NCBI GenBank assembly: GCA_951812645.1
Contig: CATOSM010000001.1
Coordinates: 1,095,560-1,159,559 of the forward strand
Source of the DNA: an uncultured Candidatus Nitrosopumilus sp.
GTDB lineage: Archaea; Thermoproteota; Nitrososphaeria; Nitrososphaerales; Nitrosopumilaceae
DNA length: 64,000 nucleotides
Reading direction: 5' to 3'
A model generated the notes under the pieces. The model was not told the origin of the DNA, made no database searches, and saw nothing but the letters and a program-made list of their open reading frames with translations. Below, piece after piece: positions 14,803 through 37,776 of the stretch. Position 1 is the stretch's first letter; each line of letters starts with the position of its first letter. A program made the translations under genes and the position numbers.

Positions 14803-16014
14803 TTATTTTAATTTTGTAGTTGTTTTGATGTTTTTCGAAATAAACAGTCTAAACCAGATTTCTAAAGATAGAATGGAAATTAGTCTATTCAAGTATCTTA
14901 TGTCACTATCATCTTTTACTATTTCAAAAGCACGATAAACCCAATTTGGATTGATTAATTTTTTCTTAAAAATAGATGGCTCTGTATCAATAATATGTTT
15001 TTTAAAAATTTTTTTCCCATTTTTCTCCCAATCAAAGAATAAACTAGGAGAGAAACCTCGCTTTTCATCTAAATGTGGAACGTCTAATTTTTTTGCAATT
15101 TTACGCAGAACCAATTTGCCTTTGTTAGATTTAAAATCATATTTTTGACTGATTGGTAGATGTAAGGCAGAAGAAACAACATCATCATCTAAAAATAATT
15201 GTCCTGGTTTAAGATCATAATGTGAAAAAATTTGTTTGCTAGTAGGAATGAAATCATATAATAATTTTCCATTAAAATCAGCTAACATTACTTGTTGTAA
15301 AGGATCTAAGGGATTTTGAAAATAAGGTTTGAAATATTCATGAATTTTCTTCCAAGAAAATTTGATTGAAGTACCAAACATTGATTCTTGATCTGGTACC
15401 CAATCACGGTTATGCCCCTCTAAATAATTTAAAATTTTAATTTTCCAATTATCGTGCTTTCTAGATAAAGTTAGGAATTTTTTATATCGAAAAACATATC
15501 CGCCAAATAATTCATCAGCTCCATCACCAGTAACTAAGGTATTAGAATATTTTTTTGCCTCTTTAGCAATAATATGATTATATGTATTCCATCTTGGTTT
15601 TCCAGTTATTGAAACTATTTCAGGCATATTTGAAAAAATAGAATTCATTTTGACAGTTATAAGAGATGCATTAAATTTTTTGGCCGCCATTTGAGCAATA
15701 TTTGATTCATCGAATCTTTCTTCAAATACACCACAAATTGCAAATATTTTTCTTTTAGGGAAAGCTTTTCTTAAAAATGCAAGACATAAAGTGGAATCTA
15801 TTCCACCACTTAAAGAAATTGCAAGAGGCTCATTGGCATTTGAAATGTTTTTTTTTGTAGATAACAATAATTTAGAATAAATCTCATTTGTGGATATGTT
15901 ATTACTTGGAGAAAAATTTTTCCACATAGCTTTGGAAATAGGTGGTTTCTTGGTAGGATCATATCTAATAGAAAGTATATTTTGAATTCCATTTTTATCT
16001 AATGATTGCAACAC
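14803..16014 (-). CDS. Asparagine-synthase-like amidotransferase lacking the glutaminase domain
   Basis: A 403-residue protein made only of the ATP-pyrophosphatase (synthetase) half of AsnB. The PP-loop SLSGGIDST at 68-75 and the VTGDGADELFGGY motif near 165-177 bind ATP and the carboxylate being activated. Classical AsnB begins with a cysteine-nucleophile glutaminase domain of about 200 residues; that is absent, so ammonia must come from a partner or from free ammonium. WbpS-type proteins of bacterial O-antigen clusters, also AsnB-like, amidate uronic acids. Since nucleotide-sugar dehydrogenases that make uronic acids lie in the same island, sugar uronamide formation is a reasonable inference. 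The paralogue at 20869-22089 has the same architecture. The start is at 16014. Confidence 0.85.
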   Translation of the reverse strand: MLQSLDKNGIQNILSIRYDPTKKPPISKAMWKNFSPSNNISTNEIYSKLLLSTKKNISNANEPLAISLSGGIDSTLCLAFLRKAFPKRKIFAICGVFEERFDESNIAQMAAKKFNASLITVKMNSIFSNMPEIVSITGKPRWNTYNHIIAKEAKKYSNTLVTGDGADELFGGYVFRYKKFLTLSRKHDNWKIKILNYLEGHNRDWVPDQESMFGTSIKFSWKKIHEYFKPYFQNPLDPLQQVMLADFNGKLLYDFIPTSKQIFSHYDLKPGQLFLDDDVVSSALHLPISQKYDFKSNKGKLVLRKIAKKLDVPHLDEKRGFSPSLFFDWEKNGKKIFKKHIIDTEPSIFKKKLINPNWVYRAFEIVKDDSDIRYLNRLISILSLEIWFRLFISKNIKTTTKLK

Positions 16015-19806: not shown

Positions 19807-20877
19807 ATGAAAATGCTGATTGGGGCAGCCCCATCAAAACTATTCCATTTAGAAGAATTATCAAAATCATTATCAAAATTTGAGATAGAATGTAAGATAG
19901 TCAATGATACAGAATACGCCGATGGATACCCTAGTAGAAATTTTAAATCTTGGGTATTTCAAAATAAAAAGTTTGAAAAATTAATTTTAGAATATAAACC
20001 AGATGTTATTTTTTTTGACAGACCAAGGCATTTTGGATTAAAGGCAGTTAATTCAAAAATCCCAGCAATTTTTTATTTACGCGGAGATTATTGGTCAGAA
20101 ATGAAATGGGCAAGAGAAACAATTTACAAATCATTCGGTAGAAAAAAAGCTTTAGATAAATGGGAAACAATTGGTGAAGAGTGTTTTTCAAAAGCTTCTA
20201 TGATATTGCCAATTTGTAAATATCTTGAAAAAATTGTAAACAAAAAATTTCCTGAAAAACCAACATATGTTTTACAAGGCGGTATTGATTCAGCAAAATG
20301 GTTTAAAACAAACCCAATGCAATTAAAACATCCATGTGTTGGATTATTACAGGGTGCAACCATATGGGGTAAAACCAAAGAATTGTTGCTTTTGAAAAAA
20401 ATAATTCCAGCGTTACCTGAAATTACATTTTATTGGGTGGGTGATGGCCCATACACAAGTCAAATACTATCCGAATTAGAAAATTTTGAAAATTTTAAGT
20501 GGCTTGGATCATTAGAATATCCTAAAAAAGTTAGAGAGTATTTGTCAGGTTTAGATATTTACGCATTGGTGAGTGGAATCGACATGTCTCCATTAACTGT
20601 TCAAGAAGCACAATTAATGAAAAAACCAGTTCTAGTTTCTGATGTTGGCGGGGTTGCAGAATTGATTAAAAATAATGAAACTGGCTATTTGATTGAGCTT
20701 GGAAATAGTGACATGTGGATAGAAAAAATTTCTTTTATAATTAATGAATTAGAATTACAAAAAAAGATGGGAATTGAAGGGAGAAAATTCATTGAAAAGA
20801 ATTTTAGTTGGGATACATTAGCAAAAGATTTTTCAAAAATATTAAATGAAATCGTTAGTAAAAACAAATCACAATAA
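19807..20877 (+). CDS. Glycosyltransferase family 4
   Basis: A 356-residue GT-B glycosyltransferase. The C-terminal domain has PCVGLLQGATIWGKTKELLLL near residue 178 and LGSLEYPKKVREYLSGLDIY near 236. The sugar-nucleotide-binding stretch VSGIDMSPLTVQEAQLMKKP, with its Glu, is near 258 and is followed by VLVSDVGGVAELI, all hallmarks of family 4. It is cytoplasmic and would transfer an NDP-sugar onto a growing lipid-linked glycan. It overlaps by nine bases at the 3' end with the convergent amidase-like gene at 20869. Sugar specificity is unknown. Confidence 0.88.
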   Translation: MKMLIGAAPSKLFHLEELSKSLSKFEIECKIVNDTEYADGYPSRNFKSWVFQNKKFEKLILEYKPDVIFFDRPRHFGLKAVNSKIPAIFYLRGDYWSEMKWARETIYKSFGRKKALDKWETIGEECFSKASMILPICKYLEKIVNKKFPEKPTYVLQGGIDSAKWFKTNPMQLKHPCVGLLQGATIWGKTKELLLLKKIIPALPEITFYWVGDGPYTSQILSELENFENFKWLGSLEYPKKVREYLSGLDIYALVSGIDMSPLTVQEAQLMKKPVLVSDVGGVAELIKNNETGYLIELGNSDMWIEKISFIINELELQKKMGIEGRKFIEKNFSWDTLAKDFSKILNEIVSKNKSQ

Positions 20878-22089
20878 AGAATTTGATTTCAATGTTTTTG
20901 TAACAAATAACCTATACCAAATTTCTAATGCCAGTAACCCTAAGAATTTATTAGCATATTTAATATCGGTTAATTCTTTTCTTAAATGTAAATCTATCCA
21001 ATCAGGATTAATCCATCCTTCTTTAGAAATTTCTGCGTCTAAAAGAAAATCCTTACATAAATTATAACCATATGAATTCCACAAATTTATTGTGTTTATA
21101 GAAAAACCAAGCTTTTGGTTTGAAACTAATGAAGATGAATTTAGTTTATTAAGCAAATCACGTAAAGGCAATTTTCCAATATTTGAATTTAAATCATATT
21201 TGTAAGAATATGGCATATGTGAAGCATATGAAATTAATTCTGTATCTAAAATTGGGGTTAACGGTTCCATGTTAAAATGATCTGTAATTTTTTTGTTATT
21301 TGGCGAAAAATTATGGAGTAACTTTCCATTATAGTCAGCCAGAAAAACTTGATCTAAAGAGGAAAGAGAATTTTCAAAATAAGGCAATAATAAAGAATGT
21401 ATTTTATTCCATGTGAAATTAAGTTTTTTACCAAATAATTTATCTTGATCTGGAACAAAGTCTCTATTATGACACATTAGATAATTTTTTACTTTGTCTA
21501 CGGGTGAAGTGTTGGAAGTGATCTGACGAAGGTATTTTTCATATCTAAAAGTATATCCTCCAAAAAGTTCATCTCCACCATCACCTGAAGCTATCCATGA
21601 TGAAGCTTTTTGGGCTTTTTTAGAAACATAATACCAATGTAAATCCCAGAAAGGTGATTTTACTATGCTTATAGCCTTAGGTAATTCATGTAAATAATTT
21701 TCTAAGAAAATTTTATTGAAATCTACATCAAAATGATCAGCGATTTTTTGGGCTTTTTCTGTTTCATCTACACTATTTGGGAATTGTACCAAAAATGCAT
21801 TTATCTGAATTTCAGGAAAATATTTTTTTAGGATAGATAAAACAAGTGTTGAATCTACTCCTCCACTTAATGCAATACTAATTTTTTTCGTATTAGGTGG
21901 CAATATTTTATCAACTGATTTTTTTAACAAAGATTCAATTAATTCTAATGAAGGTTGTTTTACAACGGGGAGAAAGTCAGACCATTGTAATTTTGGTGCA
22001 CTGGATGATTGAGATGCATCATAACGTAAAGTCAGAATGTTAAAAATCTGAGAAGAGGTTAATGCGTTTATAGAAGAATTATTGTCCAA
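20869..22089 (-). CDS. Asparagine-synthase-like amidotransferase lacking the glutaminase domain (second copy)
   Basis: A 406-residue AsnB synthetase-domain protein with the PP-loop IALSGGVDSTLV at about 72-83 and ASGDGGDELFGGY near 170-182, without the N-terminal glutaminase domain. It aligns along its whole length with the protein at 14803-16014, including an N-terminal motif ILTLRYDAS (ILSIRYDPT there), so the two are paralogues of a specific short subfamily. It overlaps by 11 bases with the upstream nucleotide-sugar dehydrogenase gene (22079-23458), strong evidence of coupled translation and related function: the dehydrogenase makes a uronic acid and this enzyme may amidate it. Confidence 0.87.
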   Translation of the reverse strand: MDNNSSINALTSSQIFNILTLRYDASQSSSAPKLQWSDFLPVVKQPSLELIESLLKKSVDKILPPNTKKISIALSGGVDSTLVLSILKKYFPEIQINAFLVQFPNSVDETEKAQKIADHFDVDFNKIFLENYLHELPKAISIVKSPFWDLHWYYVSKKAQKASSWIASGDGGDELFGGYTFRYEKYLRQITSNTSPVDKVKNYLMCHNRDFVPDQDKLFGKKLNFTWNKIHSLLLPYFENSLSSLDQVFLADYNGKLLHNFSPNNKKITDHFNMEPLTPILDTELISYASHMPYSYKYDLNSNIGKLPLRDLLNKLNSSSLVSNQKLGFSINTINLWNSYGYNLCKDFLLDAEISKEGWINPDWIDLHLRKELTDIKYANKFLGLLALEIWYRLFVTKTLKSNSLL

Positions 22090-25476: not shown

Positions 25477-27141
25477 CTACATTGTTGCTTGAGAAGCATC
25501 ATGGAACATCTGGCTCTTTGCACAGCCAGCAGCAAGTTCATCGCCTGCTCCACGTCTCATAAGACCTCTGTATAGGCCATCTTCGAGTTTGACGCTTTCT
25601 CTTTCTTCCCACTCCTCTACAGTGATTGAATATTTCTTTTGGATTCTGTCTCTATACCATTCTGGAATTACGTTAAATGCACAGAATGGGACTATTCTAA
25701 GGTCTGGAGTTACATAGTGAATATCACATCTTTGTAGTCTTTCCAGGTCTTCATTGTATTTGTCTTGAAAGTGCATCATGCCAAGGAACAATCCTTTGAC
25801 ATGCCATGAACCAACTGAATCAAATGATCTCTTCATCAGGATGTTACCAAACATCTTTGCCAAATCTAATCCTGCTGGTTGTTTCTTTGTATCAACAAAG
25901 CCTTTGAGTTTTCTAACAACTTCAAGCATTGTGAAATACTTGTTTTTACCAGAACGAATCTCTTCTGCTTTATCTTCAAATAATTCCAACATTCCTTGAA
26001 TGTCACAGAATTTAGTCAATGGGACAAATTTCTTTGTATCTGCATCTTCAAAGATGTATGTTCCTGCACCACAAGCAAAGTGAATTGACAACTCATACTT
26101 TGGTTTGCTTGAAAATGCTTCAATTACATTTGTTAGCGGCATACAGCTTGGGACTGGGAACCAATCATCAACAGTTACCTCACCGTTTGTCTGTTCTTCG
26201 ATTCTTTGAACGCAATCAGGTACGGTAATTCTGTATTTTTCACGTTCAGATTTACCCATTCTGCCGGTCAATGATACTGGTTGAAAGTTTACGGCATGAA
26301 CTACATCCATATTCTTTTGTGCATATCGAATGATTCCGCCTAACTCATGATCGTTAATTGATTTGATTACTGTTGGGACAAACACTACTGTGGTACCTGT
26401 TTTTCTACAACTGTCAAGTGCGTATGGGATTTCCCAGTGATTCTTTGGGTTTGTTCTTGCAGTTACGCCATCAAATGAAAGATACAAGTTGTTACATCCA
26501 GCAAGTCTTACTTCTCTTGCAGCCTCTGGATCCATTGCATGTCTAATGCCATTGGTATTCATCTGAATGTGATCAACACCTTCCTCCTTCATAATTTGAA
26601 TAACGTCAGAAATATCCTCCCTAAGCATTGGTTCGCCACCAGTAATTTGCATTGAATTTCCTGGGATTGGTCTTTCCGCTCTTAGAGTCTTCATCATACC
26701 TCTAACTTGGGTATGATCTGGTTCATACATGTAAGCACCTTCAAGTCCCTTCTTTACATAAAAGAAACAATACCAACAGGTTAGATCACATCTGTTAGTT
26801 ACAATCATGTTTGCTAGTCCACTGTGAGACAAGTGGTTTGAACATAATCCGCAGTTGTTTGGACATGAACACTTGTCAATCATTACATTTGGAGAATGTG
26901 CACCCTTGCCATCCATCCAGTAAGTACTGAATTTCTTGTACATTTCATATGAACCAAAGTATAACTCCTCACATTCACCGTGAGTTGGACAAATTTTTGA
27001 CATGAATACCTGGTTATCCCGCTCAAAGACTTCAGCGTCCAAAATCATGTTACAGTCTGGACAAATACTTTGAGTGAATCTAATTGTGGATTTTTTTCCC
27101 AAGTTTTTAGTTGTTTGATTAGATATCTGAATTAATGCCAT
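25477..27141 (-). CDS. Radical SAM protein resembling tetraether lipid synthase (Tes)
   Basis: A 554-residue radical SAM enzyme. The [4Fe-4S] motif CDLTCWYC (C118, C122, C125) is followed by QITGGEPML at 165-173. The N-terminus carries extra cysteines: CPDC at 27-30, CPTHGE at 51-56, and CSCPNNCGLC at 91-100; FHFACGAG-like and C-terminal cysteines also occur. This order (rubredoxin-like N-terminus, second Cys cluster, then radical SAM domain) matches Tes/MJ0619-type enzymes, which join two archaeol chains into a tetraether. Ammonia-oxidising archaea make crenarchaeol, so a Tes is expected. No B12 domain is present, which argues against the ring synthases GrsA/GrsB. The assignment is by motif order and is moderately secure. 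Confidence 0.7.
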   Translation of the reverse strand: MALIQISNQTTKNLGKKSTIRFTQSICPDCNMILDAEVFERDNQVFMSKICPTHGECEELYFGSYEMYKKFSTYWMDGKGAHSPNVMIDKCSCPNNCGLCSNHLSHSGLANMIVTNRCDLTCWYCFFYVKKGLEGAYMYEPDHTQVRGMMKTLRAERPIPGNSMQITGGEPMLREDISDVIQIMKEEGVDHIQMNTNGIRHAMDPEAAREVRLAGCNNLYLSFDGVTARTNPKNHWEIPYALDSCRKTGTTVVFVPTVIKSINDHELGGIIRYAQKNMDVVHAVNFQPVSLTGRMGKSEREKYRITVPDCVQRIEEQTNGEVTVDDWFPVPSCMPLTNVIEAFSSKPKYELSIHFACGAGTYIFEDADTKKFVPLTKFCDIQGMLELFEDKAEEIRSGKNKYFTMLEVVRKLKGFVDTKKQPAGLDLAKMFGNILMKRSFDSVGSWHVKGLFLGMMHFQDKYNEDLERLQRCDIHYVTPDLRIVPFCAFNVIPEWYRDRIQKKYSITVEEWEERESVKLEDGLYRGLMRRGAGDELAAGCAKSQMFHDASQATM

Positions 27142-30770: not shown

Positions 30771-31078
30771 GAAGTGGATTCAATCAACCATTTTAGATAG
30801 GAATCATTAATTGATGTAACATCAATTTCTACAATTTCTGGAACATCATAGGGATGAGTTTCTTTAATTTTTCTTTTCAACGAAATTTTATTTTTTGTGA
30901 TTGTTTTGAATACAGCAATGTATTCTGATGAGTTTTCTACTTTTCCTTTCCAAGAGTAAATAGATGATATTTCTGAAATGTTCACGCATGCAACTATCTT
31001 GCTTTCTACCAATTGATTTGCAATTTTAGAAATGGATTTTTTGTTAGGATATGTGGAGATTATAATCACTGGTTTCAT
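30767..31078 (-). CDS. cutA: CutA1 divalent-ion tolerance family protein
   Basis: A 103-residue trimeric ferredoxin-like protein, the usual size for CutA1. The family pattern is clear: the first strand and helix (IISTYPNKKSISKIANQLVE), VACVNISEISSIYSWKGK near 31, and the C-terminal THPYDVPEIVEIDV near 80. CutA was linked to copper tolerance in E. coli, but its general role is unsettled. It starts at ATG 31078, facing the site-2 protease gene with a shared short spacer. Confidence 0.92.
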   Translation of the reverse strand: MKPVIIISTYPNKKSISKIANQLVESKIVACVNISEISSIYSWKGKVENSSEYIAVFKTITKNKISLKRKIKETHPYDVPEIVEIDVTSINDSYLKWLIESTS

Positions 31079-31121
31079 AGTAAACGATAAATGTCCGTAC
31101 TTTAAAAAATTAACAATTAGT

Positions 31122-32342
31122 TTGGAACTTGATTTTATTACTCAGAATGCGATAATCTATGTCTTAATGGCTTGGGTGGTCATTATAGTAATTGCAAAAG
31201 CCCTCAAATTAGAAAAATATGGTTTTGAACTAAAGGCATATAGTCTTGTATACAAAAATAAAAGTGTCAATGATGTATTAATCAAATTACTAGGACGAAC
31301 AAAAAGGAGTGTCAGAATTTTTGCAGACGTGAGTGTGATTGCAGGTTTTATTATGATGGGATTTGCATTTTACTTTTTGTTAAATAATGTTTCAAACTAT
31401 TTTGTTGCACCATCAAGTTTTTCAGAATTAACAGTACTTATTCCAGGTGTTACACTAACTTCAGCGCCGGCAATTACATATTTTCTACTTTCAATTCCAA
31501 TTGTACTAGTTATGCATGAAGGAGCACATGGCATAGTAGCTGCGTTAGAAAAAATAAAAATTAAGACCGGAGGATTTGCAGTATTCGTTGCATTGTTTGC
31601 AGGGTTTGTAGAACCAGATGAAGAAGAGTTTGATAAAGCTAAAAAGATTTCAAAGCTAAGAGTAATCGGTGCAGGGGCTACATCAAATGTGTTGTTTGCA
31701 ATTGTTTTAGGTGCCATCATGTTAACGAATCCAGTTTTTGGGATGGTTTTAGAGAGCATTCCATTATTTGGCGAATCCATCTTAAACACATTTTACGAAT
31801 TATCAAAAGGAGTTTTGATACTGTCAATTATAGAAAACTCCGGAGCTGAACAAGCGGGACTACTTGCAAATGACATCATTACTACGATTAATGACGTAGA
31901 GATTCGAGGTCCGGCGGATTTCCCTGTCTTAAACCCAGGAGAAATGGCTAGTGTTTATGTAATTAGGGATGGTCAAGAATTAGAATTTGGGTTAGAAGTA
32001 ATGGCTGATCCAAATGATCCTGATAGAGGATTAATAGGAATTATGAGAGATAGTTCAATGCCATACAAACCTGTAATGAATTTTATTGATTGGACAAATG
32101 TGGATTTTAACATTTCAATGTTCTTGTTGTGGCTTTGGATGATTTCATTTTTTATTGGAATCATCAACATGCTTCCATTGCCAATTTTAGACGGAGGAAA
32201 ATTCATTCACACAATTATCGATAAGAGAATTTCAGATAAATCAGTAAATATTGTAATGTGGGGAATATACGGATTCACCTTTGCATTATTTGGGCTTAAC
32301 ATTGCCCTGTCATATTTGAAATCCGGATGGATTACAATCTAA
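31122..32342 (+). CDS. Site-2 protease family membrane metalloprotease (M50) with PDZ domain
   Basis: A polytopic zinc protease that cuts substrates inside or near the membrane. The zinc motif HEGAHG (HExxH type) and the second motif NMLPLPILDGGKF are present, and a PDZ-like segment lies between them (LSIIENSGAEQAGLLANDII). Six or so hydrophobic segments are visible. The open frame extends back to 31032, but that region is antisense to the start of cutA; TTG 31122, followed by ELDFITQNAIIYVLMAW and a membrane helix, is the more likely start. Such proteases release membrane-bound regulators in other organisms; its target is unknown. Confidence 0.85.
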   Translation: MELDFITQNAIIYVLMAWVVIIVIAKALKLEKYGFELKAYSLVYKNKSVNDVLIKLLGRTKRSVRIFADVSVIAGFIMMGFAFYFLLNNVSNYFVAPSSFSELTVLIPGVTLTSAPAITYFLLSIPIVLVMHEGAHGIVAALEKIKIKTGGFAVFVALFAGFVEPDEEEFDKAKKISKLRVIGAGATSNVLFAIVLGAIMLTNPVFGMVLESIPLFGESILNTFYELSKGVLILSIIENSGAEQAGLLANDIITTINDVEIRGPADFPVLNPGEMASVYVIRDGQELEFGLEVMADPNDPDRGLIGIMRDSSMPYKPVMNFIDWTNVDFNISMFLLWLWMISFFIGIINMLPLPILDGGKFIHTIIDKRISDKSVNIVMWGIYGFTFALFGLNIALSYLKSGWITI

Positions 32343-32364
32343 AAATCGTATAGGATACACTTAT

Positions 32365-32727
32365 TCAATTTTTGCGGTCTGAATCAAATTCTATCAAAAA
32401 AACTGCTACAGTTACACTATCTTCATGACTGATAGACGATGTTGAAAAATATGCAGAATGATTTTTTAAGTTAACGTATGGAACATCGTTCTTATGTAAT
32501 GTTTCAATATCTAAGAGATCAATTTTTTTATTTAATGCCTTGATCACTGCTTCTTTTAAAGCAAATTTTCCTGCAAAATGAGTATATGGATTTTTAAATT
32601 TTGTGCAATAATCGATTTCGTTCTGAGTAAAAATTTTCTTGTAAAAATTTTTGTTGTCAGATATTTTCATTGATGAAAATTTTTTAATCTCTACAACATC
32701 AATGCCAATACTGAATCTCTCTATCAC
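32365..32727 (-). CDS. acpS: Holo-[acyl-carrier-protein] synthase (AcpS-type phosphopantetheinyl transferase)
   Basis: Transfers 4'-phosphopantetheine from CoA to a serine of acyl carrier protein. The 120 residues are the usual size of AcpS. IGIDVVEIKKF at 7-17 holds the metal-binding Asp, and FAGKFALKEAVIKALNK near 50-66 is the family's KEAxxKAL motif with the second metal ligand; the C-terminus has the SISHEDSVTVAVFL strand. Most archaea lack both ACP and AcpS. An acyl carrier protein gene lies 3.3 kb away (36070-36306) and is the obvious substrate. A glycan gene block separates the two. Confidence 0.88.
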   Translation of the reverse strand: MIERFSIGIDVVEIKKFSSMKISDNKNFYKKIFTQNEIDYCTKFKNPYTHFAGKFALKEAVIKALNKKIDLLDIETLHKNDVPYVNLKNHSAYFSTSSISHEDSVTVAVFLIEFDSDRKN

Positions 32728-32772
32728 AACTAAAATGTGATAGTGAATTATTTATACTATTTAGTAATTTTA

Positions 32773-33555
32773 CTAAATGTGTTTATTTTTTAAAAATTTT
32801 GCTAGATCAATACCATTGAATAGTGTTACATCTTCTTGTGAAGAAAGAAATTCAAGTATTTTTTCATACATTCTTCCTCCTTTCATTTTTAAAACATTGT
32901 CATGCCATAAAATAGTCATAATATTAAATTCTAGATTTAGTTTACGACAAGAATTTAACGTTTTTTCTACTATCTCAATAATTTTATCTTCAGGAATTTT
33001 CATGTATGTAAAAAGATATGCGTCCATTAAGGTAACTGGAAATTCAAAAATTTTGTTAATTCGTTGATAGCCCATATCTTCAGGCATGATATCATCCTTA
33101 GTTTTTCTAAATGATGAATCATATGTAAAATCCAATTCAGTTAATTTTTCAGGTAATTTTTCATCATTTGACAAATAATGTACTCTATTACCATAAATTT
33201 TTGAGCCTAAGATTTCTTCAAGATCTTCTTTTTCTTTTTTTATTTTAAGAATATCATTAACAGAAGAAGGATCCGTATGTAATCCTATTTCCCAGCCTTC
33301 TTTGTATAATTTTTTTATATCATCCTGATAATCTCTGTAATCTCCATTTTCATATTTGGTTCTAAAGAAAAATGTTGATTTGGCATCATATTTTTCTTCA
33401 ATCTCCATATATTCTGAAAAATTACGATATAGTTTGTTAGTTGGTGTTGTCTGAAATAATTTTTCGTCAAATCTATTTTTTATTTTTAAGATATGATCCT
33501 TTGGAGGACCATAAAAATTCCAATCTACGTCATGACTTAAAAAAACAAATGGCAT
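32773..33555 (-). CDS. Polysaccharide-deacetylase-like protein (WbmS-like)
   Basis: A 260-residue protein of the NodB/polysaccharide-deacetylase-like fold. It opens FVFLSHDVDWNFYG (residues 4-17), where SHDVD supplies metal ligands, then has STFFFRTKYENGDYR near 59, WEIGLHTDPSSVND near 88 and YGNRVHYLSNDE near 118, the series of His/Asp motifs seen in WbmS-type proteins of bacterial O-antigen clusters. A deacetylation or other hydrolytic role on sugar substrates is the natural guess; the exact catalytic set is not certain. It lies 15 bases downstream of the acyltransferase gene on the same strand. Confidence 0.75.
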   Translation of the reverse strand: MPFVFLSHDVDWNFYGPPKDHILKIKNRFDEKLFQTTPTNKLYRNFSEYMEIEEKYDAKSTFFFRTKYENGDYRDYQDDIKKLYKEGWEIGLHTDPSSVNDILKIKKEKEDLEEILGSKIYGNRVHYLSNDEKLPEKLTELDFTYDSSFRKTKDDIMPEDMGYQRINKIFEFPVTLMDAYLFTYMKIPEDKIIEIVEKTLNSCRKLNLEFNIMTILWHDNVLKMKGGRMYEKILEFLSSQEDVTLFNGIDLAKFLKNKHI

Positions 33556-33570
33556 AACAAAAATAATAAT

Positions 33571-34236
33571 TTAAGATGTTATATCTTTTAATCTATCACT
33601 TGTAATTGATAATCTCTGTGAAGAATCTATTGCATATACTCCTTTTTCAACTGTATTTTTCATAATTAAAGTGCCCATTCCAATAATACATTCTCTAGCA
33701 ATAGTTATTCTATTTCTTATTGTAGAATTTGCAGCAATAATACAATATGATTCAATTGTAACATATCCTGAAATCACCACTTGATGAATAATAAAACAAT
33801 GATCTTTTATGATTACATTATGACTAATTACATTATTACTCCAAATTATTACATCATCCCCAATGCTAACAAATGGTTGGATGACGTTATTTTCTAGAAC
33901 AAGACAATTTTCTCCTATTTTTACATCTTCGCCGATTGTAGATGTTGGATGAACATAACTCAATAATTCATAACCTAATTTTTTAGCTTTATTGAAAATT
34001 TTTGCTCTATTTTTATTCATATCAGTGTGACCCATTGCAATAAATAAACAAAAATCATTTGGTGAAAATATTTTATCAATGTTTTCGAAAGGTGTAACAG
34101 GTAAATTCAAAAAAGTTGGTTCCTTTAACATATGACTATTTACAGTGAATCCGACTACTTCATGTGGACTATCTTTTAAATACGAATGAACTAATTTAGC
34201 AAAATTTCCTACACCAAAAATTATCACTTTTTTCAA
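33571..34236 (-). CDS. NeuD/PglD-like sugar O/N-acetyltransferase
   Basis: A 221-residue acyltransferase. The N-terminus is a Rossmann-like sugar-binding part (KKVIIFGVGNFAKLVHSYL), and from about residue 90 a left-handed beta helix follows (VHPTSTIGEDVKIGENCLVL, VSIGDDVIIWSNNVISHNV). This two-part plan is that of PglD/NeuD, which acetylates a UDP-amino sugar or sialic acid. The usual catalytic His after NVISHN is present. It precedes the deacetylase-like gene and is divergent from the FkbH-like gene (34316), so all may share a regulatory region of about 80 bases. Confidence 0.88.
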   Translation of the reverse strand: MKKVIIFGVGNFAKLVHSYLKDSPHEVVGFTVNSHMLKEPTFLNLPVTPFENIDKIFSPNDFCLFIAMGHTDMNKNRAKIFNKAKKLGYELLSYVHPTSTIGEDVKIGENCLVLENNVIQPFVSIGDDVIIWSNNVISHNVIIKDHCFIIHQVVISGYVTIESYCIIAANSTIRNRITIARECIIGMGTLIMKNTVEKGVYAIDSSQRLSITSDRLKDITS

Positions 34237-34315
34237 TACTACTAATAAATTCCAAGTGCTGTTATATGTTATTATTTACAATTAATTAATTAAGATGAAA
34301 AATATTGAAACATAA

Positions 34316-36067
34316 ATGAATTATGAAAAAACGCTCTCAGATTTTATTAACGAATCATCTAAAATAATTGATAAGAATTTAAAGAAAAAAATCAAAATTG
34401 CAATATTATCAAGCTATACTGTAAATGGCTTAAAGGAAGTAATACGTGTAAAATGCTCGGAATATGGAATTTCGTCTTCAATTTATGAAGGTCAATACAA
34501 TCAATATTCTCAAGAAATTCTTGATACAGACAGTAATTTTTACAAATTCCAACCAGATATAGTATTTTTACTAATAGATACAAGAAATATTTTTGATCAA
34601 ATATATTATTTCTCAGATTCAAAATCAATCGAACAAAAAAAATCTTTTGTTAGTGAAAAAATCTCTGAAATTAATCATTTAATTAATTTTTTCACAGATC
34701 AATCTAATGCAACGATAATTATAACCAATCTAAATATTCCGACTAATTCACCTTATGGTATTTCTGAATTAAAATTAGATTATGGACTATTAGAAATGAT
34801 AAATGAATTTAATTTAAGCTTGAATTCAAATTATAAAAAATCTGAACAAATTGCAATTTTAGATTTTAATTCTTTTGTATCAAAATACGGTGAAGATAAC
34901 ATTTTTGATCCTAGGCAATATTTTTTTGGCAATATTCAAATTAGTATAAAATTTCTACCTAATTTTGGAAATGAAATTGTAAAATATATAATTCCGTATT
35001 TGGGTTTAACAAAAAAATGTTTAGTGTTAGATCTTGATAATACACTATGGGGAGGCATAGTTGGAGAGGATGGATTCAACGGGATTAAACTAGGACCAGA
35101 ACCACCGGGTAATGTGTTTGTTGAATTTCAAAAAATCATACTATCATTACATCAACGCGGAATTATTTTAGCCATTAACAGTAAAAACAATTTTGATGAT
35201 GCCATGCAAATTATAAAAGAACACCCATACATGGTTTTAAAAGAAGAGCATTTTTCTTCAATTAAAATTAATTGGAATGATAAAGTTTCAAACATTAAAC
35301 AGATTGTAGAAGAATTGAATATCGGATTAGATAGTATTGTATTTTTAGATGACGACAAAGTCAATCAAGAATTAGTCAAATCCATGTTGCCAGAGGTATT
35401 TGTGCCTAAATTACCTGAAGATCCATCATTATATTCAAAATATTTACAAAATATTATTGAATTTAGTAATTTACGGATTACTAAAGAAGATAAACAGAGA
35501 GGAAAAATGTATGCTCAACAAAAAATGAGAAATGAATTGGCAACAACTACTCCTGATCTTACAACATTTTTAAAAAAACTTGATTTGAAAATAACTATTA
35601 AAAAAGTAGATGCTTTTTCACTACCTCGTGTATCACAATTAATTTTGAAAACTAATCAGTTTAATTTAACTACAAAAAGATACCAAGAATCTGAAATAGA
35701 ATTAATGGTAAATGATCCGAATTTTTTCATTGGTTATGTCAATGTCAAAGATAAATTTGGAGATAATGGAATTACTGGAGTTTTTATAATTAAAAAAGAA
35801 TCTAAAAAAATTTGGAATATAGATACTTTCTTGTTAAGCTGTAGAGTGATGGGAAGAGATGTAGAAAAAGGTATGTTTGTGTATATAGTTAACGAAGCAA
35901 AAAAACAAAATGTAGAACAAATTAAGTCAAAGTTTATTCCTACACAAAAAAACAAACCTGTAGAAAATTTTTTGCCAAACTGTAATTTTAAAAAAGATGG
36001 TGATTATTGGGTGTATATGGTTAAATCTAAATTATCATTTCCAGAATTTTTGGAAATAGAGGCATAA
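34316..36067 (+). CDS. FkbH-like HAD-family protein (probable glyceryl-ACP synthase type)
   Basis: A 583-residue protein in three parts: an N-terminal SGNH-like region (about 20-225), a HAD phosphatase-like domain with motif I DLDNTLWGG at 239-247 and IVFLDDDKVNQ near 340, and a C-terminal GNAT-like domain (about 400-575; KFGDNGITGVFII, CRVMGRDVEKG). In polyketide pathways FkbH proteins take D-1,3-bisphosphoglycerate, remove the phosphate and load the glyceryl group onto an ACP. The next gene, two bases on, is an ACP. The reaction here is inferred from this pairing. FkbH-like proteins also occur in bacterial surface-polysaccharide clusters, where products are less well known. Confidence 0.87.
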   Translation: MNYEKTLSDFINESSKIIDKNLKKKIKIAILSSYTVNGLKEVIRVKCSEYGISSSIYEGQYNQYSQEILDTDSNFYKFQPDIVFLLIDTRNIFDQIYYFSDSKSIEQKKSFVSEKISEINHLINFFTDQSNATIIITNLNIPTNSPYGISELKLDYGLLEMINEFNLSLNSNYKKSEQIAILDFNSFVSKYGEDNIFDPRQYFFGNIQISIKFLPNFGNEIVKYIIPYLGLTKKCLVLDLDNTLWGGIVGEDGFNGIKLGPEPPGNVFVEFQKIILSLHQRGIILAINSKNNFDDAMQIIKEHPYMVLKEEHFSSIKINWNDKVSNIKQIVEELNIGLDSIVFLDDDKVNQELVKSMLPEVFVPKLPEDPSLYSKYLQNIIEFSNLRITKEDKQRGKMYAQQKMRNELATTTPDLTTFLKKLDLKITIKKVDAFSLPRVSQLILKTNQFNLTTKRYQESEIELMVNDPNFFIGYVNVKDKFGDNGITGVFIIKKESKKIWNIDTFLLSCRVMGRDVEKGMFVYIVNEAKKQNVEQIKSKFIPTQKNKPVENFLPNCNFKKDGDYWVYMVKSKLSFPEFLEIEA

Positions 36068-36069
36068 CA

Positions 36070-36306
36070 ATGTCCGATAAACTATATGAAATAATTTCTA
36101 AAGTGATGAATGTTCCTGCATCATCTTTAGTGGATACTATGGGTCCTGAAAATATAGAGAGTTGGACATCATTTAATGGATATGTTTTACTACATGAATT
36201 AGAAACAGGCTTTGATGTAAAATTTTCTATTGATGAGGTTATGGATGTAAAAACAATCACAGATATCAAAAGACATTTGAAAAATAAAGGAATAACTTTT
36301 GACTAA
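36070..36306 (+). CDS. Acyl carrier protein
   Basis: A 78-residue four-helix carrier protein, the normal ACP size. The pantetheine-attachment site is ESWTSFNGYVLLHELE, with S34 at the place of the DSL serine; the flanking TMGPENIESW resembles ACPs paired with FkbH proteins. DVKFSIDEVMDVKTITDIK follows, the usual helix II-III region. It would carry an acyl group as a thioester after modification by the AcpS at 32365-32727. It starts two bases after the FkbH-like stop and overlaps the following hydratase gene by eight bases, so the three are one translational unit. Confidence 0.9.
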   Translation: MSDKLYEIISKVMNVPASSLVDTMGPENIESWTSFNGYVLLHELETGFDVKFSIDEVMDVKTITDIKRHLKNKGITFD

Positions 36307-36730
36307 TTCTCCATTAGAATATACTTTTGATTCTATCAATGTTGGAACAAATCATGAATTTGGAATAACAGTTACAGAAAAACTTGTATCTAATTTTTCA
36401 GAAATTTCAGGTGATTTTAATCCATTACATATGGATGAAAACTATGCGACCAAAACCAAATTCAAGAAAAGAGTTTGTCATGGAATGTTACTTGCATCAT
36501 TTTTGTCCAGACTTGTTGGAATGTATATGCCTGGAAAAAATGCATTATATTTTTCACAAACTCTTAATTTTACTTCTCCATGTTTTATCAACGATACAAT
36601 CATTGTAAAAGGAGAAGTAATTGAAAAAAATGATGCGACCAAAATCATTACGGTAAAGACTACAATAACCAATCAAAAAAATGAATTAATTCTTAATGGG
36701 GATGCTAAAATTATGATAATGAATAATTAA
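36299..36730 (+). CDS. MaoC-family (R)-specific enoyl hydratase-like protein
   Basis: A 143-residue hotdog-fold protein. FSEISGDFNPLHMDENYA near residue 32-49 carries the catalytic Asp and His of the MaoC/PhaJ hydratase motif, and KRVCHGMLLASFLSRLVGMY near 61 is the usual core helix. Such enzymes hydrate trans-2-enoyl thioesters or dehydrate (R)-3-hydroxyacyl thioesters on CoA or ACP. The start is TTG 36299, inside the ACP gene, which points to coupled translation and an ACP-bound substrate. A role in CoA metabolism is an alternative. Confidence 0.87.
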   Translation: MTNSPLEYTFDSINVGTNHEFGITVTEKLVSNFSEISGDFNPLHMDENYATKTKFKKRVCHGMLLASFLSRLVGMYMPGKNALYFSQTLNFTSPCFINDTIIVKGEVIEKNDATKIITVKTTITNQKNELILNGDAKIMIMNN

Positions 36731-36791
36731 AAAGATAGAAAAATAAATTTTATTTTAGATTGATCTACTCTTAGATTATCAAATCTAATAC

Positions 36792-36860
36792 ATGCGTAAT
36801 AATCAACAACGTATGGGTAAATGTCCTAAAGAATCATTAATGAAAAAGTTTGATCAATAG
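36792..36860 (+). CDS. Possible 22-residue peptide upstream of ncsA
   Basis: A short ORF from ATG 36792 to TAG 36860, basic and hydrophilic (starts MRNNQQRMGKCPKESLM). It overlaps the alternative TTG start of ncsA and lies one base before its likely ATG (36862). It could be a leader peptide, a tiny protein or chance. A TATA-like TTTTATTTTAG at about 36750 lies upstream. Confidence 0.3.
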   Translation: MRNNQQRMGKCPKESLMKKFDQ

Positions 36861-36861
36861 T

Positions 36862-37776
36862 ATGAATTGTGACAGATGTCAAAATCCTGCAGCATATACA
36901 AGGAAATATTCAGGGGAAAAACTATGTTCACAATGCTTCTCAAAATCCATTGTAAGAAAAACTGCTAAAACTATTTCAAAATACAATATGATTAAACATG
37001 ATGATCTAGTAGCAGTTGCTGTATCTGGCGGGAAAGATTCTCTGGCATTATTAAAAATCATTAATGAAATGGCATTAACACATAGTTTTAAGATTAAAGC
37101 AATTACTATTGATGAAGGAATTCCAGGATATAGGAATGAAGCATTAGATATTGTTAGAAAATTTTGTAATGAGTTAAATGTAGAATACAAAGTTTACGCA
37201 TACAAGGATCTTTTTGAATTAGCATTGGATGAAGCACTTGATTTACGAGAAAATGAAAAAACTTCATCATGTTCAATTTGTGGAACGTTAAGAAGAAGAG
37301 CAATAGACTATGCTGCCAGAGACATAGGAGCAGATGTAATTGCAACAGGCCACAATCTTGATGACACACTACAGACATTTGTCATTAACATGCTTTCTGG
37401 AGATACAACTAAAATTGGATGGATGGATCCAGATACATCTGCAAATGATCTGAGAAAAATAAAACCATTTTGTGAGATTTATGAATCGGAAATAGTGTTT
37501 TATGCATTTACAAATGATATGCCATTTCAAGCAGAACCATGTCCGCACATGAATGAAGGAATAAGAACAGAAATTCGTGAATTTCTAAATTCATTAGAAA
37601 ACCAACACAGCGGAATTAAAAATAATTTGTATCAATCAATTCTTAAAGTTTCTACATCAGTAAAAAATTCCAACTCTAAAGAAAAAACAAAATGTGAAAA
37701 ATGTGGAAACGGTTGTACAGGTAACGTATGCGCAGTGTGCAGTGTGGTTTTAAAACTAAAAGAAAACCAAACCTAA
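36862..37776 (+). CDS. ncsA: tRNA 2-thiolation ATPase NcsA/Ncs6 (TtuA/CTU1 family)
   Basis: Adenylates and helps thiolate tRNA uridine 34, using ATP and a sulfur carrier protein. From ATG 36862 the protein has 304 residues. A zinc finger (MNCDRCQNPAAY, LCSQCF) opens it, the PP-loop VAVSGGKDSLAL is near 53-64, the CSICGTLRRR cysteines near 137 may bind an Fe-S cluster, and a second zinc finger closes it (KCEKCGNGCTG, CAVCSVV). ATGHNLDDTLQTF is the conserved ATP-site loop. TTG 36850 is an alternative start but would interrupt the leader region. Confidence 0.9.
   Translation: MNCDRCQNPAAYTRKYSGEKLCSQCFSKSIVRKTAKTISKYNMIKHDDLVAVAVSGGKDSLALLKIINEMALTHSFKIKAITIDEGIPGYRNEALDIVRKFCNELNVEYKVYAYKDLFELALDEALDLRENEKTSSCSICGTLRRRAIDYAARDIGADVIATGHNLDDTLQTFVINMLSGDTTKIGWMDPDTSANDLRKIKPFCEIYESEIVFYAFTNDMPFQAEPCPHMNEGIRTEIREFLNSLENQHSGIKNNLYQSILKVSTSVKNSNSKEKTKCEKCGNGCTGNVCAVCSVVLKLKENQT

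Follow-up and report, generated by a model that had tools for sequence, protein, structure and literature searches.

An acyl carrier protein gene island of an uncultured Candidatus Nitrosopumilus with a predicted role in the decoration of a surface glycan

Chemistry that depends on an acyl carrier protein (ACP) is said to be absent from most archaea. The window analyzed here, i.e. the whole stretch of 64,000 nucleotides from contig CATOSM010000001.1 of an uncultured Candidatus Nitrosopumilus sp., harbors an island of six genes encoding an ACP, an AcpS-type holo-ACP synthase, a FkbH-like protein, a MaoC-type enzyme, a NeuD-type acyltransferase and a deacetylase, which raises the question of what such a set of genes is for. 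Taken as a whole, we regard it as probable that the island encodes an ACP pathway complete in itself, by which a surface glycan receives a three-carbon (C3) acyl group, an overall estimate that is a compromise between its parts. That a C3 unit is loaded and subsequently transferred to a glycan is quite likely; its specific dehydration to a pyruvyl or lactyl group is a tentative proposal. The cassette itself is real, well formed and probably active. It provides a compact single-copy ACP system in an archaeal group with cultured members, for which substrate, intermediates and destination are predicted.

The island (AcpS-deacetylase-NeuD and, divergently, FkbH-ACP-MaoC) comprises six open frames. 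On the minus strand lie the genes of the AcpS-type holo-ACP synthase (32365..32727), the polysaccharide/sugar deacetylase (32773..33555) and a left-handed beta-helix sugar N-acyltransferase of the NeuD/PglD/VioB type (33571..34236). The plus strand encodes the predicted FkbH-like glyceryl-ACP synthase (34316..36067), the ACP with its attachment site Ser34 in the sequence IESWTSFNG (36070..36306) and a MaoC dehydratase/hydratase of the PhaJ hot-dog type (36299..36730). Both halves are separated by an A+T-rich intergenic region of 79 bases (34237..34315), in which the promoters are presumed. The ACP gene follows the FkbH gene after a gap of two bases, and the MaoC gene, which has a TTG start, overlaps the ACP gene by eight bases, as it also does in the loci L011, L012 and L016. 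Coordinates, profile scores and curated family cut-offs agree with the initial annotation of this region, which had described the FkbH-ACP-MaoC unit, its gap and overlap, residue S34, and an AcpS gene 3.3 kb from the ACP gene with NeuD-like and deacetylase-like genes in between.

The genes occupy an insertion of ~4.5 kb between an M50 protease gene (31032-32342) and a TtuA-like gene (36850-37776), which are directly adjacent in 12 of the 14 other genomes compared. Since an 18-base intergenic stretch (CCTAAAGAATCATTAATG), conserved ahead of the TtuA gene in relatives, is retained at positions 36825-36842 and still adjoins this gene, the inserted foreign part spans about 32343-36824. Its gene block has a GC content of 0.263, compared to 0.343 and 0.358 on the flanks. 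The six genes form one inserted unit, and the presence of AcpS, deacetylase, NeuD, FkbH, ACP and MaoC within a single insert is the best evidence of their joint action, lending support to the earlier claim of a dedicated ACP system loaded by FkbH. The M50-TtuA junction holds different cargo in genomes G012 and G021 and can be regarded as an insertion site with varying cargo (window 32343-36824; L205:2512-3750; L207:2584-3792).

The FkbH protein scored 302 bits with TIGR01686 (cut-off 147) and 69 bits with TIGR01681 (HAD-IIIC; cut-off 36) and also matched the FkbH_N domain PF21211. It is composed of an N-terminal SGNH-like domain, a HAD-IIIC domain and a C-terminal GNAT fold. In a Foldseek search, the AlphaFold2 model of the protein (pLDDT 89.6) matched BF1531 of Bacteroides fragilis (PDB 3slr) with a TM score of 0.91 by target over the SGNH-like and HAD parts. 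Low E-values were also obtained with GNAT structures, which agrees with the expected fold of the C-terminus; the HAD and GNAT parts had thus been described correctly from the outset. BF1531 is the sole solved relative of FkbH by sequence (E 1e-77), but its entry covers the N-terminal part and does not extend to the GNAT part which the window protein possesses. A loss of catalytic residues, considered in the initial annotation, was not found: the HAD residues D239, D241, S289, K323 and D345 are conserved in 93/93 FkbH homologues, and cysteines C235 and C509 in 90/93 and 92/93, respectively. In the phylogenetic tree, the protein is placed on a long branch inside a supported Nitrosopumilaceae clade (SH-like approximate likelihood ratio test, SH-aLRT, 99). 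Phosphoglycerate kinase (PGK), the maker of 1,3-bisphosphoglycerate, is present in the genome to which the window belongs (G000).

The ACP reached 22.6 bits with PF00550 (cut-off 20.8), and its S34 is kept in all seven aligned archaeal ACPs within the motif W-x-S-F/L-N. AcpS contains the motifs GIDVVEI and KFALKEAVIK, scored 58 bits with PF01648 (cut-off 25; E 1e-15), lay above the cut-off of TIGR00556 and matched the AcpS structure 5xuk (E 1e-19). With TIGR00516 it gave 51.3 bits and remained below the equivalog cut-off of 59.8, so that it is an AcpS-type phosphopantetheinyl transferase (PPTase) outside this equivalog. PF00550 and PF01648 are represented in the window genome by a single protein each, encoded within the island, and neither another ACP nor another AcpS-type PPTase was found in it; the cell thus has no ACP system but that of the island. 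AcpS was detected in 8/8 tested genomes with FkbH and in 1/8 without it, the latter having the gene beside an ACP and an adenylate ligase. A search with PF00109 revealed no full-length ketosynthase in any of 16 genomes, in line with the short acyl products that had been anticipated. The weak partial matches of ~40-100 residues, found in all but one of these genomes and mostly in proteins of 370-400 amino acids, are read as thiolase-like proteins. The accompanying statement that a dehydrogenase is lacking is correct for the window but not for the family, as a short-chain dehydrogenase/reductase (SDR) gene belongs to the operons of L016, L128 and the decayed L017.

From these genes the following route can be proposed. 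AcpS would attach phosphopantetheine to Ser34 of the ACP, onto which FkbH would then load a glyceryl group obtained by dephosphorylation of 1,3-bisphosphoglycerate. MaoC may dehydrate glyceryl-ACP at the 3-hydroxyl, yielding an enol-pyruvyl and then a pyruvyl-ACP, which in relatives possessing an SDR would be reduced to lactyl-ACP. Where a VOC protein replaces MaoC, the C2 centre of glyceryl-ACP might be epimerized instead. Finally, the deacetylase would free an amino group of a sugar, and NeuD and/or the orthologue of a hexapeptide acyltransferase (hexAT) encoded 37 kb away would move the acyl group from the ACP to that sugar.

Support for the MaoC step comes from the protein itself and from its company. 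MaoC scored 83 bits with PF01575, and its PDB match was PhaJ (1iq6, E 2e-32). Its catalytic-type residues D39 and H44 are present in 46/46 aligned and 47/47 operon MaoC proteins, respectively, and the genome has a single copy of this type. MaoC was detected in 7/8 genomes with FkbH and in 0/8 without, the one exception carrying a VOC gene. Among 93 dereplicated FkbH loci, MaoC occurred in 47 operons (including L058, where it is fused to an AAC(3) protein) and a VOC gene of the glyoxalase/methylmalonyl-CoA-epimerase fold in 16, but never both. A FabG-like SDR accompanied 17/47 MaoC operons compared to 1/46 others, NDP-sugar epimerases (L026, L123) having been excluded by length and score limits; these FkbH operons with MaoC and SDR are L016, L128 and a further 15 loci of bacteria or DPANN. 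Naive Fisher values of 2.6e-6 (MaoC/SDR) and 1.8e-5 (MaoC/VOC) ignore the kinship of the loci and, as these are not phylogenetically independent, overstate the evidence.

In nine loci of the Nitrosopumilaceae type (L025, L027, L031-L036, L132), the VOC gene fills the exact slot of MaoC between ACP and AcpS. The model of its product (pLDDT 92) is closest to glyoxalase I of C. acetobutylicum, a Bacillus homologue and methylmalonyl-CoA epimerases, and H5, E53, H76 and E127 are invariant. Enzymes of the glyoxalase and methylmalonyl-CoA epimerase families abstract a proton from the carbon beside a thioester or hemithioacetal. This chemistry would fit alternative fates of glyceryl-ACP, namely dehydration, possibly followed by reduction, or epimerization, and the VOC protein may be a glyceryl-ACP epimerase. 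Proteins of this kind, 133-137 amino acids in length, are also encoded near FkbH in bacteria (L049, L056, L075, L077, L078, L086, L094).

As to the destination of the acyl group, the window NeuD scored 174.5 bits with TIGR03570 (cut-off 160.8) and 26.1 bits with PF17836 (PglD_N; cut-off 23.4) and has a left-handed beta-helix (LbH) domain. Its best PDB match is VioB (7txp, E 3e-19), the histidine of its SHNVI motif being aligned with that of SHGVI in VioB. By family and by this likeness, it falls among the NeuD/PglD/VioB sugar N-acyltransferases. The deacetylase reached 29.2 bits with PF01522 (Polysacc_deac_1; cut-off 23.1) and resembles weakly the UDP-diacetamido-sugar deacetylase VimE. Neither protein is orthologous to its counterpart in the relatives, where a deacetylase with DUF3473 is found, although this belongs to the same class. 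Orthologues of hexAT (61-66% identity) were present in 9/9 tested genomes that possess an AcpS-ACP system and in 0/7 that do not. Thus, what remains constant is the trio of ACP, AcpS and this acyltransferase, supporting a transfer of the ACP-bound acyl group by the latter. In one bacterium (Clostridium, L058), MaoC is even fused to an N-acyltransferase of the AAC(3) type.

The window genome itself has undergone rearrangement. Its hexAT and DUF3473 deacetylase genes lie ~2 kb upstream of the window and 37 kb from the island (L201), in the order RmlB-RmlA-GT2-[transposase remnant]-hexAT-deacetylase. The remnant, of a DDE transposase (L201:14897-16489, on G000:C1), stands between GT2 and hexAT exactly where L011, L232 and other loci possess AcpS-MaoC-ACP-FkbH. 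From this arrangement, it is likely that the FkbH block of this genome originally had its place here. The simplest reading would be that the block was lost from the GT2-hexAT site and that the window island brings its own deacetylase and NeuD. Two pairs of a deacetylase and a left-handed beta-helix acyltransferase, differing in their families, have thus become linked to the core, an argument for a scheme of deacetylation followed by reacylation. L201:12-8495 is a nonulosonic (pseudaminic-like) acid locus with PseB-, PseC-, NeuB/PseI- and CMP-transferase-like genes and a WbuX-type N-acetyl sugar amidotransferase scoring over its cut-off. Owing to its proximity, pseudaminic-type or 4-amino-4,6-dideoxy sugars are conceivable acceptors, which is no more than a lead.

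The closest known systems are the FkbH/OzmB-type glyceryl-ACP synthases of polyketide extender, tetronate and starter-unit pathways. They share with the island the FkbH domain, the free adjoining ACP, the HAD-IIIC residues and the GNAT-like C-terminus. By contrast, the archaeal island is devoid of a polyketide synthase (PKS), FabH, extender dehydrogenases and a methyltransferase, and it has linked AcpS, deacetylase and sugar acyltransferase genes. In the FR901464 and lankacidin pathways, proteins with dehydratase and ketoreductase domains (DH-KR) convert glyceryl-ACP to lactyl-ACP (reviewed in PMC4765723). This sequence of a dehydratase and a ketoreductase after FkbH is matched by the operons containing MaoC, SDR and FkbH. 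A ketoreductase partner is encoded in L016 and L128 but not in the window operon. Moreover, the dehydratase of the island is a stand-alone PhaJ-type MaoC, and the predicted destination is a glycan rather than a polyketide.

A parallel from surface glycans is provided by the flagellin of C. jejuni, in which C5 of pseudaminic acid bears a 2,3-di-O-methylglyceroyl amide; Cj1295 has been proposed to remove the acetyl group first (PMC3068675). The same locus contains cj1302, a gene with an fkbH domain, as well as cj1301, whose annotation is that of an epimerase (PMC7099621), and a 7-N-glyceroyl derivative of pseudaminic acid is known from T. forsythia (PMC9912281). The C. jejuni locus thus likewise combines a fkbH-domain gene, a proposed de-N-acylation of the sugar and a glyceric-acid amide as product, a likeness drawn from published descriptions (PMC3068675, PMC7099621). 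It differs from the window island, which has a deacetylase of another family, MaoC instead of methyltransferases, and AcpS in addition. DUF4910, the family to which Cj1295 presumably belongs, adjoins FkbH-ACP in L040, L045, L049 and L058.

Several points weigh against a C3 decoration of a glycan by the island. Those NeuD-type enzymes whose function is known depend on acetyl-CoA, and the use of acyl-ACP by the window NeuD is therefore an assumption. A pathway building the sugar is absent inside the island. In matched pairs on the tree, the associations of MaoC with SDR and VOC always pointed in the same direction but were too few for significance. Neither the window operon nor, as a dedicated gene, the remainder of the genome contains an SDR. 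The family of the best SDR candidate occurs in most of the 16 genomes, irrespective of FkbH, and the candidate was rejected as a dedicated ketoreductase. Hence, the product of the window cassette would be a pyruvyl group unless an unlinked reductase helps, and most Nitrosopumilaceae likewise lack an SDR. Finally, biochemistry was found for no archaeal member.

Four other explanations were considered. MaoC might have no part in the pathway, which would then end at plain glyceryl-ACP, as in the FkbH-ACP-AcpS-hexAT loci without MaoC in Nitrososphaerales and Bathyarchaeota, which look complete (L041, L043, L050, L060, L062, L064); glyceroyl sugars are known as well. We consider this rather unlikely, because MaoC is a single-copy gene that overlaps the ACP gene by eight bases in several genomes, is present in 7/8 tested genomes with FkbH versus 0/8 without, and has invariant catalytic-type residues. 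The initial annotation had proposed that the ACP carries a hydroxyacyl group for a sugar. In such a version, MaoC would act as a hydratase and the group would be an (R)-3-hydroxyacyl, e.g. 3-hydroxybutyryl derived from crotonyl units of carbon fixation. MaoC is indeed PhaJ-like with intact Asp and His, and 3-hydroxyacyl groups occur on amino sugars of bacteria. But neither a ketosynthase for such a chain nor, within the island, an ACP transacylase for its loading was found, the loader beside MaoC is FkbH, while the ligase-loading relative G059 has no MaoC, and a hydration would not need the downstream SDR that tracks MaoC. This explanation is unlikely, and less likely to be correct than the C3 version, since a glyceryl, pyruvyl or lactyl substituent is what one would expect when MaoC acts after loading by FkbH. 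What holds of the original proposal is the transfer of an ACP-bound acyl group to a glycan by a linked acyltransferase, supported by the glycan clusters, the distribution of hexAT and the MaoC-AAC(3) fusion.

FkbH with a free ACP is also a hallmark of small-molecule pathways (PMC7489565), and a tetronate- or methoxymalonate-like product instead of a glycan decoration has to be taken into account. It is very improbable, given that a ketosynthase or FabH was not found in the genome, that extender-unit dehydrogenases and a methyltransferase are missing from the island, that the genes linked to it code for sugar acyltransfer and deacetylation, and that the relatives sit in glycan clusters. Least of all do we expect a recently acquired, inactive foreign island. 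Its low GC content, its clean insertion at a site with other cargo in G012 and G021 and the broken FkbH of the relative G044 would fit this assumption, but none of the six frames is interrupted, catalytic residues and gene overlaps have been conserved, and FkbH is rooted within the Nitrosopumilaceae clade (SH-aLRT 99).

How special is a C3 decoration pathway of this layout? FkbH of this type is patchily distributed, as it was found in 8/120 genomes in a search of relatives and in 18/398 genomes of the phylum. The usual order in Nitrosopumilaceae is hexAT and DUF3473 deacetylase on one strand and FkbH-ACP-(MaoC or VOC)-AcpS on the other, within a glycan cluster; the gene-order comparison suggested earlier thus retrieved FkbH-ACP-MaoC-AcpS together with neighboring genes for a deacetylase and a hexapeptide acyltransferase. 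A scan of contigs disclosed the same core in Nitrospirota, Omnitrophota, CPR bacteria, DPANN, Bathyarchaeota, Thorarchaeota, Clostridia and others. The initial view that no characterized archaeal system of this layout is known overstated its novelty, as many bacteria and archaea possess the module, which is widespread among them though apparently undescribed. Literature searches on archaeal or Nitrosopumilus FkbH/ACP systems, whose coverage is incomplete, yielded no description, and those on FkbH in O-antigen or capsule loci nothing relevant. The island is the archaeal branch of a widespread module and a modular variant of known chemistry, not a new kind of system.

Within the genus, AcpS occurs in 13/95 genomes. 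The neighbor is FkbH in nine of them (one decayed, G044) and an ACP with an AMP-binding ligase in G051 (L231), G059 (L159) and G046 (L234), with hexAT of the same family following the ligase in G051 and G059. In G016 (L233), the same kind of ACP stands beside AcpS where the contig ends. It is conceivable, though somewhat doubtful, that ammonia-oxidizing archaea carry exchangeable ACP cassettes solely for the decoration of glycans, with a fixed core of ACP, AcpS and acyltransferase, alternative loaders and one slot for a tailoring gene. One loader would be FkbH, with 1,3-bisphosphoglycerate from glycolysis as its substrate, the other an adenylate ligase, fatty-acid synthesis not being involved; the slot would take MaoC, MaoC with a reductase, or a VOC protein inverting C2 of glyceryl-ACP. 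If so, a swap in the slot would provide the cell surface with the same C3 group in another oxidation state or stereochemical form. A loading enzyme of polyketide pathways would thereby be tied to surface-glycan variation, offering major marine ammonia oxidizers a route to variable surfaces, for which, speculatively, phage attachment may matter.

Some cassettes deviate from this picture. L160 (G219), with genes for a ligase, a cyclase, an ACP-like and an AAC(3)-type protein, has no AcpS, so that its ACP may be degenerate or false. L017 (G044) is a decayed cassette with FkbH in three pieces and remnants of ACP, MaoC, SDR and AcpS, followed by a MBOAT-like gene. L035 (PBKP01000031.1), labelled Nitrospina, has its place among archaea of marine group I in the FkbH tree, shares their gene order and is probably a mis-binned archaeal contig.

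Elsewhere in the window, a gene for the tetraether lipid synthase Tes (25477-27141; NF045702, 690 bits, cut-off 450) lies at the edge of a glycan cluster. Of asparagine synthase-type amidotransferases, two related proteins encoded in this cluster (14803-16014 and 20869-22089) have the C-terminal (synthetase) half alone; they are possible sugar amidation enzymes. An IS5-type transposase (1882-2665) is split over two overlapping frames and perhaps frameshifted or decayed.

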